Positions 4,543 to 61,950 of a stretch of 64,000 bases of DNA are shown piece by piece. A model generated the notes under the pieces. That model made no database searches. It saw nothing but the letters and a program-made list of their open reading frames with translations, and was not told the origin of the DNA. The DNA is from Spirosoma sp. 48-14 (GTDB lineage Bacteria; Bacteroidota; Bacteroidia; Cytophagales; Spirosomataceae). A program made the position numbers and the translations under genes. Within the stretch, counting starts at the first letter, position 1; each line of letters opens with the position of its first letter. The stretch lies in assembly GCF_001898575.1 (NCBI RefSeq), contig NZ_MKUD01000032.1, forward strand, positions 26,732-90,731. The letters run 5' to 3'.

Positions 4543-4577
4543 GAATCGATTTAGATAAATGAACAATGTATAATGTA

Positions 4578-4646
4578 CAATGAATAATGGGTTTTAGTTG
4601 ATAATCAGTCTGTGGATTGTCATTTTACATTATCCATTATTCATTG
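4578..4646. repeat. AATGGATAATG-type palindrome
   Basis: CAATGAATAATGG (4578-4590) is exactly inverted at 4634-4646. Both arms are built from the same AAT(G/A)ATAATG units seen in the palindromes at 26981-27061 and 61698-61950. It lies just upstream of fmt. Confidence 0.7.
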
Positions 4647-5410: not shown

Positions 5411-5495
5411 TAGTAGTTAGGAGCGAGGAGTGAGAATGGCTGACGCCAGAGTAATAAATGCGTCAGCCATTCTCACTCCTCGCTCCTAACTACTA
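5411..5495. repeat. 36-bp perfect palindrome with TGACGC apex
   Basis: Arms 5411-5446 and 5460-5495 are perfectly inverted over 36 bp around a 13-nt loop. The apical part of the left arm contains GAATGGCTGACGCCA, shared with the palindromes near 42851 and 56981. It fills the gap between greA and the HIT gene and ends 16 bp before the HIT start codon. It could act as terminator, RNA stabiliser or translation block. Confidence 0.85.
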
Positions 5496-26193: not shown

Positions 26194-27225
26194 CTATAAT
26201 TTTGTTAAAAACTCGAGCGCTCGCTTTTCCGACCAGTAGGTACCCTGAAGGCTGCTGTGCCTGTCGGGGAAGCCACAGTGGCCACCTTGCTCTGGAAACT
26301 CCATCCAGACGTTGGGTAGTTCCCGGGCCAACGATTCTGGGAAACATTCGGGCGAAAGAAACGGGTCGTTTTTCGCATTGATAATCAGCGTGGGTATCGC
26401 AATATTCGGAATAAACTGAAGCGAGCTGCTTTGCGTATAGTAGTCCAGTGCATCCCGAAAGCCGTTCATAGGTGCCGTAAAGGTATTATCGAACTCTCGA
26501 ACGCTCCGAACTTTTCGAACAGCTTCGGTCGGAAAAACACCCGGCATCACTTCGGCTTTCTGCAATACCTTTCGTTTAAGCGTTCGATTAAATCGGTAAT
26601 TATACACCCAGCTATCCCATTGCTCCAGCCGTCGGGCTGAGCCCATCAGATCGAGGGGGACCGAAAAAACAACAGATTTTTTGATAGCTGGATGGATTGC
26701 TCTGCCTTGTTCGCCGAGGTATTTCAAGGTTACATTGCCACCTGCGCTAAACCCCATCAAATACAGGGTTGTATACCCTTTCGTGAGGGCATAGTTAACT
26801 ACAAAGTCCAGGTCGCTGGTTTCACCAACGTGATAAAAACGTTGCTGGCGGTTCATCTCACCACTGCACGACCGATAGTGCCAGGCCAGGCAATCGAATC
26901 CATGATTAGTCAGCTGCCTGACCATACCTGCCAGATACGGACTCGTTGAACTGCCTTCCAGACCATGGGAGAGAATAACTAATGGATAATGATCAATGGA
27001 TAATGGATAATGAGCACTCGCAGCTTTTTCATTATTCATTATCCATTGATCATTATCCATTGCCCTTCCCCAGTCCAGATCCAGAAAATCATCATCGGGC
27101 GTTTCGATACGTTCGCGGACGTAAGCAACCGATACCTTGCGAAACAGCGAGGGAATAATGGTTTGTAGGTGGCCGTTCCATAAACGGGCGGGCGGCTCAT
27201 AGCTGGATGGGGCAATCAGCGGCAT
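26194..27225 (-). CDS. YheT-like alpha/beta hydrolase with in-frame palindrome insert
   Basis: A cytoplasmic alpha/beta hydrolase of the YheT/AB-hydrolase 4 group. Family marks are PARLWNGHLQTIIPSLFRK at the start, LVILSHGLEGSS (oxyanion strand), and the nucleophile elbow LMGFSAGGNVTLKYLG. The catalytic Asp region is NAKNDPFLSPE and the His is in GGHCGF. I chose the ATG at 27225 (343 aa), because MPLIAPSSYEPPARL fits the family start and the longer start at 27252 adds nine odd residues. Residues 56-82 are encoded entirely by an 81-bp palindrome (27 codons) of the type found between genes elsewhere. They sit just before the oxyanion strand, in a surface loop, so the enzyme may still fold. Confidence 0.85.
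   Translation of the reverse strand: MPLIAPSSYEPPARLWNGHLQTIIPSLFRKVSVAYVRERIETPDDDFLDLDWGRAMDNDQWIMNNEKAASAHYPLSIDHYPLVILSHGLEGSSTSPYLAGMVRQLTNHGFDCLAWHYRSCSGEMNRQQRFYHVGETSDLDFVVNYALTKGYTTLYLMGFSAGGNVTLKYLGEQGRAIHPAIKKSVVFSVPLDLMGSARRLEQWDSWVYNYRFNRTLKRKVLQKAEVMPGVFPTEAVRKVRSVREFDNTFTAPMNGFRDALDYYTQSSSLQFIPNIAIPTLIINAKNDPFLSPECFPESLARELPNVWMEFPEQGGHCGFPDRHSSLQGTYWSEKRALEFLTKL
26981..27061. repeat. AATGGATAATG-type palindrome inside a coding sequence
   Basis: Arms 26981-27013 and 27029-27061 are inverted over 33 bp with one mismatch and a 15-nt loop. The total length is 81 bp, exactly 27 codons, and no stop codon is created. Units are the same as at 4578-4646 and 61698-61950, which are intergenic. 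Confidence 0.9.
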
Positions 27226-27609
27226 TGCACACGCGGGCGATTGAAGCCGCAAAGGTAAGCGTTCTACTGCTTAGAAACCTGGTAAATTCAAAAAAAGAGG
27301 GCGATTGGTTTGTTTTCTTTTAGTGGTTGCCCGATTCTATTGCTAATTCGGTATTGATAGTAACTATTTGCTGAATGAATGTGAACGTATAAAAATAAAA
27401 AGGCTGGTCGTAGTGCGGCCAGCCTTTCCCATTGAATACAACCTGAATTGAAAAAAGCAATGATGGATGCCGCGTTAGCAGCAAGTGAGTCAAAATTGGT
27501 AAATAAAAAGATTTAATACAACTATTTCGATAAAGAAAAATTATTTTATTACTAATCATTCTTTTGGAGGCCCTATATTGCATGACGATCATATATCTAA
27601 CACCTTCCT
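27226..27609. other. Divergent intergenic region, yheT-like / kelch gene
   Basis: This 384-bp AT-rich region holds the promoters for the leftward hydrolase gene and the rightward kelch operon. A TACCTTTG box on the minus strand (27250-27257) resembles a -7 element for the hydrolase, but no well-spaced TTG was found. A hairpin lies at 27399-27427. I see no gene in it. Confidence 0.45.
27399..27427. terminator. Hairpin in divergent region
   Basis: AAAGGCTGG (27399-27407) pairs with CCAGCCTTT (27419-27427), with an A-run before it and a pyrimidine run after. It lies upstream of both neighbours, so it may end a small or antisense transcript. Confidence 0.5.
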
Positions 27610-42089: not shown

Positions 42090-42109
42090 ACACAGTTTAT
42101 CGTTTATGG

Positions 42110-42184
42110 TTTACAGTTTACAGGGCTTTGATGCGCCAGGAACGTGCGTCAACTCACTGTAAGTGATGAGCCGTAAACTGTAAA
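42110..42184. repeat. GTTTACAGTTTAC-type inverted repeat
   Basis: TTTACAGTTTAC (42110-42121) is exactly inverted at 42173-42184, inside longer imperfect arms made of GTTTA/CGTTTA units. The region between includes TGATGCGCCAGG and TGCGTCAAC. It lies between the NUDIX and LysE genes and is built like the other palindromes. Confidence 0.65.
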
Positions 42185-42205
42185 TCGTAAACTTTTTCAC
42201 ATCCT

Positions 42206-42844: not shown

Positions 42845-42850
42845 GAGGTT

Positions 42851-42936
42851 AAAGAGCGAAAGATAGAAAGAGTGAAAGAGCGAATGGCTGTCGCAAGCTT
42901 TTTTCGCTCTTTCTATCTTTCTATCTTTCGCTCTTT
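42851..42936. repeat. GAAAGAG-type palindrome overlapping GH3 stop codon
   Basis: Arms 42851-42884 and 42903-42936 are inverted over 34 bp with two mismatches. The apex contains GAATGGCTGTCGCAA, matching the cores at 5411-5495 and 56981-57047. The right arm supplies the last codons and the stop of the convergent GH3 gene (KSER then TAG). Confidence 0.85.
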
Positions 42937-44468
42937 AAAAAGTTTTCCCACTCCTTCACGAGTCCCTTCTTCAGCACGCGCGGGAATTTGTGCTGGCCGC
43001 CCATTTTGCCCCGCGATTCCATCCAGTCGTAGAAGGTTTTGGCGGGCAGTACCGTTACCGAAATATCTTTCAGGGCATGCTCACGTTCAACGGCATAATC
43101 GTCGTTGAGTTCTTTGAGCCGGGCATCGATCCGGTCGCGGAGAAGGTTGGCATCCACTTTATCGTCGGTGCCGATATACCAGTCGTGGGCGAAGAGTGTA
43201 CCATGCGCAACCCCGGCCACGGTAAATTCACGCACCGAAATCCCCAATTCCTGCGACACCAGTTCAATCGCTTTATTCATGTTATCGACCGAAAGGTGTT
43301 CGCCACACAAGCTCAGGAAGTGCTTCGTTCGGCCTGTAATCACGATTTCAGCCTGCTTTTTGTCGACAAACCGAATCGTATCCCCGATGAGATAACGCCA
43401 GGCACCCGCACAGGTCGAGAGGAGCAGGGCATATTCTTTACCTTCCTCCACTTCATCGATCATAAGCGTTTGTGGATTGTCGGTTAGCTCACCATCGGGC
43501 GTGAAGTTCTTTTCGTTGAAGGGAATAAATTCAAAAAACAGACCGTTGTTTAGTACCAGTTGCATCCCTTCGGCATTGGGGTGCGTCTGGAATGCAATGA
43601 AGCCTTCGGAGGCCAGGTAGGTTTCGATGTAGGTAATGGGGTGCGCAAGCAGTTTCTCAAAGCCTGCCTTATAGGGCTCAAACGAAACACCACCATGGCC
43701 AAATACCATTAAGTTGGGCCAGATATCGTGGATGGTTTTTACCTTGTACCGGGCAATGATTTTCTCCATCAGCAGTTGAATCCAGGCCGGAACGCCCACC
43801 ACATAGCCAATATCCCAGTCGGCCGCCTGCTCGGTGATTTCGTCCAGCTTCAGCGCCCAGTCGCGTTCCTGAGCTATGTCTTTACCGGGCTTATAAAATC
43901 GCTGAAACCAGAACGGAATCTGACTGGCTGTAATCCCACTCAGATCGCCCTCGAAATGCCCCTGTCGCGCGTTCAGATTAGTACTGCCTCCCAGCATCAG
44001 ATAGCCTTTTTCGTAGAGTGTAGCCGGTAGGTTCTGGTATTTGCCCAATGTCAGGATTTGCCGGATACTAGCCCGCTGAATAGCCCTCGACATGGCTTTC
44101 GTTACCGGAATGTATTTGGTAGAGGCTTCGGAGGTTCCCGAGCTTAGAGCAAAATATTTGACCCGACCGGGCCAGGTGATGTTTCGTTCGCCAGCCAGCG
44201 TGCGATTCCACCAGCCATCGAACATTTTGTTATAGTCGTGTATGGGGACGTTCTTCTTGAATTTCTCGTAGAACTCATGGTGGGCCCCAAACTCGACCGC
44301 CCGGAGCAATTCGTCGAAATGAAAGGTCGTGCCAAATTGCGTAAATTGTGCTTTCTGAATGAGTTTTCGAAAGGCTTTTCGTTGTTGACTGAACGGATTC
44401 GTTTTTCGTAGTCGAACGGCATTGGTGAGCCGAATACCACTTTTAAGCAAACTTCCTAAGAGAGCCAT
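42921..44468 (-). CDS. GH3 auxin-responsive-promoter-like acyl adenylase
   Basis: A 515-residue protein of the GH3 branch of the adenylate-forming superfamily. The ATP site is visible in ALSSGTSEASTKYIPVTKAM, with FGHGGVSFEPYK and TYLASEGFIAF following, and the hinge region FLSLCGEHLSVDN leads to the C-terminal domain. Plant GH3 enzymes join acyl acids to amino acids. The bacterial substrate is unknown. I chose the ATG at 44468 (MALLGSLLKS), because an upstream start at 44516 would read through a palindrome. Its last four codons lie inside another palindrome. Confidence 0.87.
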   Translation of the reverse strand: MALLGSLLKSGIRLTNAVRLRKTNPFSQQRKAFRKLIQKAQFTQFGTTFHFDELLRAVEFGAHHEFYEKFKKNVPIHDYNKMFDGWWNRTLAGERNITWPGRVKYFALSSGTSEASTKYIPVTKAMSRAIQRASIRQILTLGKYQNLPATLYEKGYLMLGGSTNLNARQGHFEGDLSGITASQIPFWFQRFYKPGKDIAQERDWALKLDEITEQAADWDIGYVVGVPAWIQLLMEKIIARYKVKTIHDIWPNLMVFGHGGVSFEPYKAGFEKLLAHPITYIETYLASEGFIAFQTHPNAEGMQLVLNNGLFFEFIPFNEKNFTPDGELTDNPQTLMIDEVEEGKEYALLLSTCAGAWRYLIGDTIRFVDKKQAEIVITGRTKHFLSLCGEHLSVDNMNKAIELVSQELGISVREFTVAGVAHGTLFAHDWYIGTDDKVDANLLRDRIDARLKELNDDYAVEREHALKDISVTVLPAKTFYDWMESRGKMGGQHKFPRVLKKGLVKEWENFLKSER

Positions 44469-44475
44469 AGTTTGT

Positions 44476-44532
44476 TGATGTATGATGTAGAATGTATGAT
44501 ATAGAAATAAATACATTCTACATCATACATCA
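44476..44532. repeat. 22-bp perfect palindrome between surE and GH3 genes
   Basis: TGATGTATGATGTAGAATGTAT (44476-44497) is exactly inverted at 44511-44532, loop 13 nt. It lies between the stop of surE and the start of the GH3 gene, both leftward. The ATGATGTA units resemble the AATGGATAATG class. Confidence 0.8.
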
Positions 44533-46496: not shown

Positions 46497-47696
46497 ATGA
46501 ACGTAGCTATTACATCATCACTATTAGGCGATTTACACTGTTCGCAATGTGGGAAAACCTACGACCCGTTTAGTCGGCAGACGGTGTCTCGATGCTGTCA
46601 GGCTCCTTTGCTTTGTGACTATGTACTGGATGTAGGTAGTGTATTGCCCGGTGATTTGGCCTCCCGGCCTAAATCGCTCTGGCGTTATGAAGAGCTGCTA
46701 CCTGGTATTCAGCCCGAGAATCGGGTGAGCCTGGGTGAAGGGTTTACACCGATTCTGACCCTGAATCGACTGGCTAGCCAAAATAATCTGCAACACCTCC
46801 TCCTGAAAGACGAAGGACTAAATCCGACGGGCTCGTTCAAAGCGCGCGGGTTAAGTATGGCAATTTCGAAAGCGAAAGAAAACGGTGAACAGGCCTGTAT
46901 TATTCCAACGGCTGGTAACGCGGGGGTGGCAATGGCCGCTTATTGTGCACGGGCTGGTATGGAAGCCGTAGTCGTGATGCCCCGTCACACGCCTGATGCC
47001 TTTAAGGAAGCTTGCCGGGCCTATAATGCTCGCCTTATTGAAGTAGATGGGTTGATCAACGACTGTGCGGCCAATGTGCAGGAAATCAATCAGTCTGGCG
47101 CGTATTTCGACGTATCGACCTTAAAGGAACCTTATCGGCTGGAGGGTAAGAAAACTATGGGCTTTGAAATCGCTGAGCAGTTGGCCTGGCAGCTACCCGA
47201 CGTGATTGTTTACCCGACTGGAGGAGGAACCGGCCTGATCGGCATCTGGAAAGCGTTCGATGAGATGCAATCGTTGGGGTGGCTTCCGCAGGAGGTAACC
47301 CTGCCGCGCATGGTAGCCGTACAGGCTGAATCGTGTTGTCCCATTGTGACCACCTGGCAGGGCAAACAACTGAATAGCAAGCAATATGTCGGGCGACCTA
47401 CTCTGGCCAACGGACTAGCGGTTCCGCGCCCAATCGGCGAACCACTTATTCTGAGTGTGTTGCTTGAATCGGGTGGAACCGCCATTGCCGTTTCGGACGA
47501 GGAGATGGTGAAAGGTGTACGCGAACTTGCCCGGTATGAAGGAATTTTTGGCGCGCCAGAAGGCGGGGCTGTATGGGCAGCTACCAAAAAACTGCTGGAA
47601 CAAGGCTGGATTCAACCCAACGAACGGGTACTGCTTCTGAATACCGGATCGGGACAGAGCTATCTGGATAATCTGAAGGGGAAGCTGACCGATTGA
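46497..47696 (+). CDS. thrC: Threonine synthase
   Basis: ThrC converts O-phosphohomoserine to threonine with pyridoxal phosphate. The 399-residue protein has a short N-terminal Cys-rich segment (Cys15, Cys18, Cys33, Cys34, Cys40) that may bind zinc, then the fold-type II core. The cofactor Lys115 is in LNPTGSFKARG, and the phosphate loop is YPTGGGTGLIG. The C-terminus LLLNTGSGQSYLD is typical. This is the shorter class of threonine synthase. No hom or thrB gene is nearby. Its stop codon lies within a 28-bp palindrome shared with convergent trhO. Confidence 0.9.
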   Translation: MNVAITSSLLGDLHCSQCGKTYDPFSRQTVSRCCQAPLLCDYVLDVGSVLPGDLASRPKSLWRYEELLPGIQPENRVSLGEGFTPILTLNRLASQNNLQHLLLKDEGLNPTGSFKARGLSMAISKAKENGEQACIIPTAGNAGVAMAAYCARAGMEAVVVMPRHTPDAFKEACRAYNARLIEVDGLINDCAANVQEINQSGAYFDVSTLKEPYRLEGKKTMGFEIAEQLAWQLPDVIVYPTGGGTGLIGIWKAFDEMQSLGWLPQEVTLPRMVAVQAESCCPIVTTWQGKQLNSKQYVGRPTLANGLAVPRPIGEPLILSVLLESGGTAIAVSDEEMVKGVRELARYEGIFGAPEGGAVWAATKKLLEQGWIQPNERVLLLNTGSGQSYLDNLKGKLTD

Positions 47697-47761
47697 ATGC
47701 TAAAGCGGTTGATTGACGCAGGCGATTCCAACGCGTCAATCAACCGCTTTAGCATTCAATC
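47691..47761. repeat. 28-bp perfect palindrome between thrC and trhO
   Basis: Arms 47692-47719 and 47733-47760 are perfectly inverted (one more pair outside). The loop-proximal part is TTGATTGACGC, sharing TGACGC with the cores at 5411-5495 and 56981-57047. It contains the thrC stop and ends 4 bp before the trhO stop, so it probably terminates both transcripts. Confidence 0.85.
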
Positions 47762-56232: not shown

Positions 56233-56976
56233 ATGGCCTTATTTCGTTCATTGCAAGCTATTCGTCTTAAAATAAGCCTATTTTTTTGTTTGCTGTCAGT
56301 TACTGCGCTGGCACAGACGGCCTTAACAGATTCTCTTCATCGAGCAGACTCGCTATTTGCCAGAGGAAATTACGCGCATGCTGCCTATTTATTTGAGATG
56401 GCTTTGGCTGAAGGGCATACCGCTACTGACCCGATATTGTTAAAACTTGCCAGCATTTATGAGCAGCAAAATGACATTCCCCGACTGCTTTATTATCTGG
56501 ATGTCTATTTTGATAGACACCCGGACGATGCTGTGCTGCGCCGAATGAATGAAATCGCTCGAGCCAATAATCTCAGCGGCTATGAGACCGATGACCTGAA
56601 TTATTTCTACCTGTTTTATCGAAAATACGGAATTTATTTTCTCCTCTTTTTGCTAATTCCGGCAGGCTATGTCTTTAGTGTTCTTATCCTGAAGGTGATC
56701 CGCAAAGAAGAGATCCCAACCCGCCAGAAGTGGATTGTCTTTCTGTATCTGTTCCTGTTACTCATCTTTACCAATTTGCCTGAGGGGGTTCAGTCGGGTA
56801 TTACCAGCCATGATCGGGTGCTGCTTCGCACCGACCCTTCTGCGGCTGCACCCGTAGTAGAGGTGATTGGTCGTGGACACAAGCTCAATATCCTGGGCAA
56901 AAAAGATATCTACCTGCGTATCCTCTGGCATAATGAACTCTACTTCATCCGACGTGACAACGTTTGGATAATTTAA
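56233..56976 (+). CDS. TPR/SH3-domain membrane protein, BatE-like
   Basis: A 247-residue protein with a signal peptide ending near residue 28 (ALAQT), two TPR-like helical pairs at about 32-115 (DSLFARGNYAHAAYLFEMAL, PRLLYYLDVYFDRHPDD), two membrane segments at about 131-154 and 165-183, and a C-terminal bacterial SH3-like domain (HDRVLLRTDPSAAAPVVEVIGRG). The layout resembles BatE of the Bacteroidota aerotolerance cluster, but no other bat genes are here, so this is only a likeness. It probably sits in the inner membrane with the SH3 part in the periplasm. Confidence 0.72.
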   Translation: MALFRSLQAIRLKISLFFCLLSVTALAQTALTDSLHRADSLFARGNYAHAAYLFEMALAEGHTATDPILLKLASIYEQQNDIPRLLYYLDVYFDRHPDDAVLRRMNEIARANNLSGYETDDLNYFYLFYRKYGIYFLLFLLIPAGYVFSVLILKVIRKEEIPTRQKWIVFLYLFLLLIFTNLPEGVQSGITSHDRVLLRTDPSAAAPVVEVIGRGHKLNILGKKDIYLRILWHNELYFIRRDNVWII

Positions 56977-56980
56977 TGAG

Positions 56981-57047
56981 CGAAAGAGTGAATGAGTGAA
57001 AGAGCGAAATGCTGACGCAAACTATTCTTCACTCTTTCACTCTTTCG
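56981..57047. repeat. GAAAGAG-type palindrome with TGACGC core
   Basis: Arms 56981-57000 and 57028-57047 are inverted over 20 bp with one mismatch. The loop carries GAAATGCTGACGCAA, matching the cores at 5411-5495 and 42851-42936. It lies between convergent genes, ending 1 bp before the SDR stop codon. Confidence 0.85.
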
Positions 57048-57048
57048 A

Positions 57049-57858
57049 TCATTTCTTAAGTGGCGAGTCTTTTTCTTTGGCCAGCGTGTTGTAGACGAGT
57101 TTGTCGGCAAGGCTGGGTAGCCACTTATTGATGAATACGGTCAGCTTCCCCTGGGTGGTTAGAATAAGTTCACGCTTACGGGATTTTACCGCTTTTAGAA
57201 TATGATCGGAGCATTCTTCGGCGCTCATCATATTGCTTTCGTCGCGCATGGTTTCACCTTTGGCATTACCGTGGGCATCCAGAGCGGAGTAACGAATATT
57301 TGAGGCTGTAAATCCAGGGCAGGCCGTCAATACGTGAACGCCCGTATGCAATAGTTCGGTGCGAACAGCTTCCAGAAACCCGTTCATCGCAAACTTGGAG
57401 GCCGAATAGCCTGACCGTACAGGAAGTCCCCTATATCCAGCTATCGAGGAGATACCGACGATAGAGCCTTTTGATTCGATAAGGTAGGGTAGGGCGTATC
57501 GGGTAGCGTAAACGGTTCCCATAAAGTTGATGTCCATTACTTTCTGAATCACCGACGGATCGGTATCAATCAGCATGGAACGCATGGAAATCCCCGCGTT
57601 ATTGATCAGAACATCCAGGCGGCCGTATTGAGCGATAGTCTGTTCGATAAGCCGTTTGACATCGGCTTCCACACTGACATCGGCTGTTATGGAAAATACA
57701 TCTATACTGGCCTGCTGTAGTTCACTGGTTACGGCTTGTAGCGCGTCGGCCTTGCGTCCGCAGATGACAATATGAGCTCCTTCGCGCCCAAACGCAAAAG
57801 CCAGCGCCCGGCCGATACCCGACGAAGCACCGGTAATCAATACAACTTTATTTTTCAT
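57049..57858 (-). CDS. Short-chain dehydrogenase/reductase
   Basis: A 269-residue SDR enzyme, cytoplasmic, NAD(P)-dependent. The nucleotide loop is TGASSGIG at residues 9-16, NNAG at 87-90, and the catalytic set Ser138 / Tyr151 / Lys155 is in ISSIAGYRGLPVRSGYSASK. Arg at the second strand (CGRKAD) points to NADPH. A C-terminal hydrophobic helix (VFINKWLPSLADKLVY) resembles membrane-associated SDRs such as DltE or DHRS7. The substrate is unknown. A palindrome directly follows its stop. Confidence 0.92.
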   Translation of the reverse strand: MKNKVVLITGASSGIGRALAFAFGREGAHIVICGRKADALQAVTSELQQASIDVFSITADVSVEADVKRLIEQTIAQYGRLDVLINNAGISMRSMLIDTDPSVIQKVMDINFMGTVYATRYALPYLIESKGSIVGISSIAGYRGLPVRSGYSASKFAMNGFLEAVRTELLHTGVHVLTACPGFTASNIRYSALDAHGNAKGETMRDESNMMSAEECSDHILKAVKSRKRELILTTQGKLTVFINKWLPSLADKLVYNTLAKEKDSPLKK

Positions 57859-61697: not shown

Positions 61698-61950
61698 AAT
61701 GGATAATGAATAATGAATAATGTAAGCAATCACGCAGAATTACCTTTTTCTGTATGACCCCGATGGGACGGTCGGCCGTTGCCGTCAGATGTTTATAGTA
61801 GATAGCGCCTTTCTATAAACATTTGACGGCAACGGCCGACCGTCCCATCGGGGTCACACAAAATTTCATTCAATTTAATCCTGCGAGATTGCTTACAATG
61901 CAAAGCCTGGCTATTCCCCATTATTCATTAGACATTATCCATTATCCATT
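61698..61950. repeat. Nested three-layer palindrome after rlmD
   Basis: Outer arms of AATGGATAATG units (61698-61722 / 61919-61950, imperfect). Middle arms GTAAGCAATCACGCAG (61722-61737) / CTGCGAGATTGCTTAC (61881-61896), one mismatch. Inner arms 61755-61798 / 61813-61856, 44 bp with one mismatch and a 14-nt loop. It fills the gap between two convergent genes and has no coding potential. Confidence 0.85.

Follow-up and report, generated by a model that had tools for sequence, protein, structure and literature searches.

An in-frame palindrome in a Spirosoma yheT-like gene as a probable slot of a dispersed family of heptad-repeat hairpins

The palindrome at positions 26981–27061 of the window (the whole 64,000-nucleotide stretch of Spirosoma sp. 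48-14 DNA analysed here) sits in frame within a yheT-like hydrolase gene and is best explained, at a probability of about 0.6, as one slot of a dispersed family of hairpins with arms of degenerate 7- or 8-nt repeats, which would be maintained and flipped by template switching and overwritten by ectopic copying while selection keeps the frame. Arms pair near-perfectly, loops are inverted, length changes in frame by whole heptads, and unlike repeat classes occupy one slot; slots also persist, arms are shared between loci and the frame is kept. Judged from sequence comparison, what appears to be new is a coding slot that has been overwritten by many heptad classes and is tied to the genome-wide class.

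The source genome of the window, here called G000, comprises 8.68 Mb in 89 contigs. Inverted-repeat analysis of the window confirmed the 33-bp arms that the initial annotation had described for the palindrome and placed them at 26981–27013 (AATGGAT-class heptads) and 27029–27061 (the reverse complement of the first, with 32 of 33 positions paired, i.e. 97% complementary), around a 15-nt loop at 27014–27028; hairpin features are reported here without a strand. Folded as single-stranded DNA it reaches −30.4 kcal/mol, whereas 200 shuffled versions average −7.43 (sd 2.17). A known RNA family was ruled out for the palindrome, which had no match, the sole match in the window at the gathering threshold being a tRNA. 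The host ORF (26194–27252, minus strand) encodes 352 aa from a TTG, with an ATG at codon 10, and the 81 bp do amount to 27 stop-free codons in its frame; the residue numbers 56–82 originally assigned to them hold when counted from the ATG and become approximately 65–91 from the TTG.

The product matches Abhydrolase_1 in Pfam (2.2e-13) and, among NCBIfam models, PRK10985, which we take to be the YheT-type model, at 239.3 bits, under the model cut-off of 267 bits. All Pfam and NCBIfam matches were to hydrolase models, and the slot peptide matched no known domain in them. A PDB sequence search gave one weak match (5h3h, 5.1e-4), and Foldseek retrieved many alpha/beta hydrolases. The AlphaFold2 model has a mean pLDDT of 89.4, with residues 70–73 and 75–85 below 50, and the added residues are predicted to form a low-confidence loop between strands 55–62 and 91–95. 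Orthologue comparison defines a variable slot of 31 aa, W61–L91 in the numbering of the listed ORF (26980–27072, minus strand).

The gene was matched in all 36 same-genus genomes searched, a set that includes G024, which groups with Fibrella in the yheT tree. In all 36, the segment flanked by DFLDLDW and LVILSHG keeps the frame, has no stop and is 11–55 residues long; the single stop reported, in G020, is the natural end of the gene. Arm-class labels at the slots were assigned by eye, and on this basis heptad arrays of eight classes are present in 23 of the 36: AATGGAT (G000, G001, G008, G022, G032), GGGCANN (G015, G035), AGTGAAG (G003, G012), GGAGTTA (G007, G010, G027), CAGTNAN (G004, G005, G024), GAATGAT (G006, G011, G028, G030, G033), GATGAGT (G002, G017) and GRGAGCG (G029). 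No array was recognisable by eye in 13 slots. The hairpin finder called a hairpin in 14 of the 36; G004, G005, G026 and G034 carry segments of 23–32 residues in which it called none, and such hairpin-free segments of similar length may be decayed hairpins. Larkinella punicea and L. knui have hairpins at the same slot, with different arms. Outside Spirosomataceae the segment is 9–14 residues long (16 resolved rows), 22 of the 65 loci in this cross-family set giving no slot by regular expression.

These comparisons revise the initial annotation, which read the palindrome as an insertion that would show as a clean 27-residue gap in close orthologues. No such gap was found: the slots of close relatives are filled, several with other repeats, and a unique recent insertion is thereby ruled out. 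A single insertion agrees with the extra length relative to other families and disagrees with a slot that is old and already filled in close relatives. Segments of similar length free of palindromic DNA, which would speak against insertion if they occurred in many genera, were found in part, inside Spirosomataceae only. The proposal that the palindromes move or expand agrees with the sharing of arm sequence among loci; because the slot is filled in close relatives, several times with other repeats, what yheT itself displays is an old slot that has been turned over and overwritten, and not one recent jump.

Placing the class labels on a tree of the remaining yheT gene (44 rows, L. knui being scored "none" although hairpin-bearing) required at least 17 changes, where the possible minimum is 8; shuffled labels required 25.5 on average, and none of 200 shuffles was as low as 17. 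This tree left out four of the 12 other-genus rows (Larkinella C7, rosea, terrae and arboricola) and the second G025 copy. Strongly supported sisters carry unlike classes in two cases, namely G003 against G032 and G015 against the pair G000/G001. The nearest genome, G001, has the G000 class with one arm short by 21 bp, i.e. three heptads or seven codons, probably through a loss in G001 since the long form is the one found in G008, G022 and G032.

Hairpins of this kind are widespread. The finder called 15 in the window against none in one third-order Markov copy, and 229 in eight stretches from six genomes, orthologues included. Among arms of at least 20 nt (n = 147), 29 have a period of 7 and 17 a period of 8, compared with 2 and 0 after shuffling. 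Within-genome arm pairs that share at least 10 bases do so almost always in the same sense (same versus opposite: 33:0, 24:1, 9:0, 9:0 and 3:0 in five genomes), and the 5' arm is mostly the G-richer strand (G>C in 126, G<C in 51). The palindrome in yheT had been assigned to the same class as the intergenic hairpins, which proved correct. That the class is otherwise intergenic in the window also fits, since only the yheT hairpin has a frame open for at least 50 codons past both ends there, in a stretch where not every gene is annotated.

Long open frames are rare around these hairpins. Only six of 198 with arms of at least 16 nt in the eight stretches lie in frames open at least 50 codons past both ends, and four of the six are yheT copies; three more in-frame candidates were not counted, two overlapping just the frame start and one lying in frames of 63–73 codons. 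When period-7/8 hairpins are taken frame by frame, 21 of 156 cases are open, a count slightly raised by three yheT copies of other species among the 52 hairpins sampled, and in 19 of the 52 the length is a multiple of three. Because the yheT slot is always open, against 21 of 156 for such hairpins, the sequences point to purifying selection on its frame. In-frame placement recurs in UvrA of G022 (L366:798-3806, minus strand; 1003 aa; TIGR00630, 1050.8 bits), in which an AATGGAT-class hairpin (G022:C1:78369-78476) covers codons 611–646. The corresponding stretch is 31 residues long here and 3 in the solved UvrA chain 3pih, so about 28 have been added, and the slot peptide (KWLMNNEQ...HYPLAINHYPF) resembles that of yheT. 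Other than L366 itself, only a partial UvrA-like gene on L104 was present among the fetched loci.

The sites of the hairpins outlast their sequences. When the gaps orthologous to window hairpins were compared genome by genome, 26 of 34 comparisons showed a hairpin; at control intergenic sites 2 of 61 did. Two slots, at 42849–42938 and at C10:175746, were followed through 30 of the 36 genomes. At the first, 6 of the 30 gave no clean anchors and 23 of the 24 that were resolved have a hairpin; at the second, 1 of the 30 gave no clean anchors and 26 of the 29 resolved have one, and the arms at both are of many classes. The former lies between convergent ORFs, belongs to the AAAGAGCG class in the window and to other classes elsewhere, and contains the end of the minus-strand ORF. 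The slot at 5411–5495 is GGAGCGA in G000 and G001, AATGGAT in G032 and G022, and AGTGAAG in G003, and the yheT slot, about 21 kb away, agrees with it in the last three: both are AGTGAAG in G003 and both AATGGAT in G032 and G022. At 44476–44532 the arms are of the GATGTAT class, with other classes in G032, G022 and G003; the slot at 42102–42192 has GTTTANN-class arms, and at 56975–57053 lies a GAGTGAAA-type hairpin with GCTGACGC in its loop and no anchors in five relatives. A further two-class slot was aligned via both flanks, with an AGTGAAG type at G035:C9:1165 and an AATGGAT type at G000:C39:10045. The candidate pair G003:C12:563798 and G000:C9:311016 was ruled out as one slot, these hairpins flanking opposite ends of one gene.

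Arm sequence is shared between loci. A nearly identical 30-nt arm recurs at unrelated loci with mostly unlike loops, and up to 31 arm bases agree gap-free between unlinked loci whose loops mostly differ. The 20-mer TAGAGTGAAAAGTGAAGAAT is present in 5 of 36 genomes, and each of the 12 loci inspected has a hairpin; at G029:3905197 most of the 20-mer sits in the loop. Mean loop similarity is 4.42 in 130 arm-alike pairs compared with 4.26 in 38 other pairs. Some arm-alike paralogues nevertheless have GCTGACGC-type loops in common, and 18 copies of a loop module, GCTGNCGCAAGCTTT, are spread over 6 of 36 genomes (4 copies for the reversed control), in several arm classes and always in a hairpin (17 called by the finder, one by eye), which suggests that some of the spread includes the loop. 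Retention of the loop while the arms are swapped was ruled out, since loops across class differences are no more alike within a slot (mean similarity 4.83) than between slots (4.85); as loops are not kept, whole hairpins and not arms alone may be replaced.

Class abundance agrees with the class in yheT. Counting ATGGATAATG on both strands gave 314 in G032, 309 in G022, 261 in G008, 190 in G000 and 130 in G001, and it is precisely these five, the richest of the 36 genomes, whose yheT carries AATGGAT arms. Next come G016 (97) and G017 (93), both fairly rich yet without this class in their yheT, and then 73, while the differing sisters are near control (G003, 39 against 32; G015, 31 against 18). 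On sequence grounds we rate this match as strong but not independent evidence, because one class is covered and the five genomes fall in two clades.

Loops were compared between G000 and G001, which are about 91% identical. Of 35 loops of at least 8 nt, 15 are direct, 6 inverted and 14 unresolved, whereas random loop pairs were called inverted in 8 of 1810 cases; the loops came from two hairpin sets, in which 5 of 19 and 6 of 54 had no clean G001 anchor and 2 and 10 no G001 hairpin, and 15 loops were dropped as too short. The clearest inversion is at C10:380410, where a 25-nt loop lies between 40-nt arms. In the window, the 42849 loop is inverted relative to G001, as is the 13-nt loop of the hairpin at 47691–47761. 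Such inversions with the arms kept are what template switching predicts: at quasipalindromes in yeast it homogenises arms and inverts spacers, in coding DNA too, according to the portions available of PMC8604942 and PMC8794818. Arms altered together are likewise seen, by eye and uncounted, at C10:134290 and C10:221088 of G000 (L082 and L087), two terminator-like hairpins whose outer arms differ from G001 on both sides while the core is kept. The inverted spacers described in yeast genes in the same portions yield substitutions of 2–5 bp, whereas in Spirosoma the loops that flip measure 12–38 nt and entire arms differ in class.

In the mechanism that we favour, a DNA polymerase that switches template on the folded hairpin would copy arm onto arm and flip the loop, and slippage by heptads would alter its length. 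Ectopic template switching or gene conversion among the dispersed hairpins would spread whichever arm sequence prevails; slots within one genome, yheT included, would consequently drift or switch class together, and the family may thus change its sequence in step. A point against this account is that GGGCANN and CAGTNAN look too remote from AATGGAT to be linked to it by gradual drift. In yheT, selection would purge frameshifts and stops, and the peptide (the whole segment of 11–55 residues) would be free to vary because it is modelled as a surface loop; most likely it has no function and is tolerated.

A different account is that a palindromic element of the MITE or REPIN-like kind, moved by a transposase in trans, inserted repeatedly at one permissive site in each species. 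Dispersed copies with common arms, the loop module common to several loci and six Y1_Tnp matches to Y1 transposase genes in G000 would all suit it, as would the AATGNNN-class hairpin at 4558–4645, which is found in G000 only among 30 resolved genomes and is absent from the other 29. This hairpin, whose arms agree at 23 of 26 positions, seems to retain the older sequence within its loop, which is awkward for an insertion; against the mechanism that we favour, no donor above 77% identity for it was seen in G000 among the matches listed. Most arm-alike paralogues have unlike loops, an unsystematic inspection noticed no end tag or target duplication, and strikes at the same codons in many lineages would need a strong target rule. 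A RAYT was rejected as the obvious mover since no heptad hairpin closely flanks any of the six Y1 loci: with about 1–1.5 kb inspected on each side, a hairpin pair of another kind was called at L103, an octad-type hairpin at the extreme edge of L101, and none at the other four. We therefore consider repeated transposition unlikely, if still worth entertaining. A trans-acting copier (e.g. RNA- or single-strand-templated) whose master arm rewrites hundreds of slots, the yheT and uvrA peptides included, with its class shifting over time, appears improbable to us.

Each slot might instead evolve singly, through slippage together with template switching by fold-back and without sequence passing from locus to locus; likeness would then come from common ancestry or simple-repeat convergence. 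Arm homogenisation and loop flips need local events only, and heptad classes do intergrade (AATGGAT, AATGAAG and AGTGAAG, for example). What makes this account distinctly improbable is the joint AGTGAAG state of two G003 slots about 21 kb apart next to AATGGAT in its sister G032, the genome-wide difference in class abundance between sisters, and the unlike classes of sister species some 0.15 substitutions per site apart. A further account, in which selection would keep a hairpin of whatever sequence in place as an RNA terminator or for mRNA processing, would suit the slot between convergent ORFs and the terminator-like intergenic hairpins at C10:134290 and C10:221088; it leaves the yheT and uvrA slots, the 7-nt period and the arm sharing between loci unexplained, and we give it very little credence.

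By analogy, the closest known case is the P6b stem of the Nostoc tRNA-Leu(UAA) intron, in which 7-nt repeats form the stem and classes I and II have replaced each other repeatedly across lineages, apparently as a whole region, going by the available part of PMC4476775. Here too heptads form both sides of the stem (29 of 147 arms with period 7) and the class is replaced at a fixed site (at least 17 changes over 44 rows, with labels by eye). The Nostoc stem is a single non-coding site in a cyanobacterial group I intron with two classes, whereas the Spirosoma site is protein-coding, has about eight classes and belongs to a dispersed family. Cyanobacteria also harbour very small dispersed repeats that form hairpins. 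Rickettsia palindromic elements, 105–146 bp long, are both intergenic and inserted in frame in conserved genes, where the protein tolerates them (PMC2229807, as far as its accessible text goes). The resemblance to them that was first noted stands as a matter of behaviour, with yheT joined by UvrA of G022, but Spirosoma arms are short-period repeats and one coding site holds different classes in different species. The R. conorii elements bear a CGTC tag at one end, and repeats with CGTC occur in five phyla, Bacteroidetes among them, according to the consulted sections of PMC3733652; the yheT element ends in AATGG...CCATT, without that tag.

High copy number and Y1 transposase genes in the genome are features shared with REPIN/RAYT systems and the GTAG/CGTC-tagged REPs (PMC3733652, same sections), from which the yheT element differs in lacking a GTAG end and in that the RAYT-like gene with close hairpins is flanked by another hairpin. 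That gene, a RAYT-like Y1 gene on L103 (G000:C1 near 318616), lies between two GTAACGCGGGTGGAAACCCGCGCTCT hairpins at 1126-1214 and 1864-1940, whose loops are mutually reverse-complementary. Long perfect inverted repeats in coding genes are also known from the mitochondria of Nematomorpha, where they are dynamic and template switching has been proposed (PMC6649704); the available extract describes no single site overwritten by short-period classes. A search by title and abstract of the openly licensed literature found no published account of such palindromes in Spirosoma or Bacteroidetes, and Spirosoma is not mentioned in the portions available of PMC12306157 or PMC13155455.

The 36 genomes provide a natural series of one coding position rewritten many times between known flanks, so that the invasion and spread of palindromic repeats in a bacterial genome, and the way in which they stay in step, can be put to the test. 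They also show how a conserved enzyme can acquire and exchange a disordered peptide as long as about 50 residues, and such slots would mislead ordinary alignment of Spirosoma genes.

Several other palindromes were seen in passing. The longest in the window, at 61748–61863, is GC-rich and non-heptad, with 51-nt arms, a 14-nt loop and no usable anchors in five relatives. The stretches of G032, G022 and G003 (L069–L080) contain further recurrent classes beside heptads, e.g. TTTTTGTCATTCCGAC...GGAGGAATCTC and ACACAGAG types. GC-rich mini-palindromes of the CCGGGCCGCCGGAGCGG type are nested in heptad hairpins at L322, L330 and the yheT slots of G006 and G027 (L110, L335), and at L322 and L330 they occupy both arms, as if one arm had been copied onto the other. 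Finally, three near-identical hairpins with nearly equal loops (L191, L196 and L201; G032:C1:1886533-1891982) recur at a spacing of about 2.7 kb, each preceding similar sequence, which is consistent with duplication of the segment.
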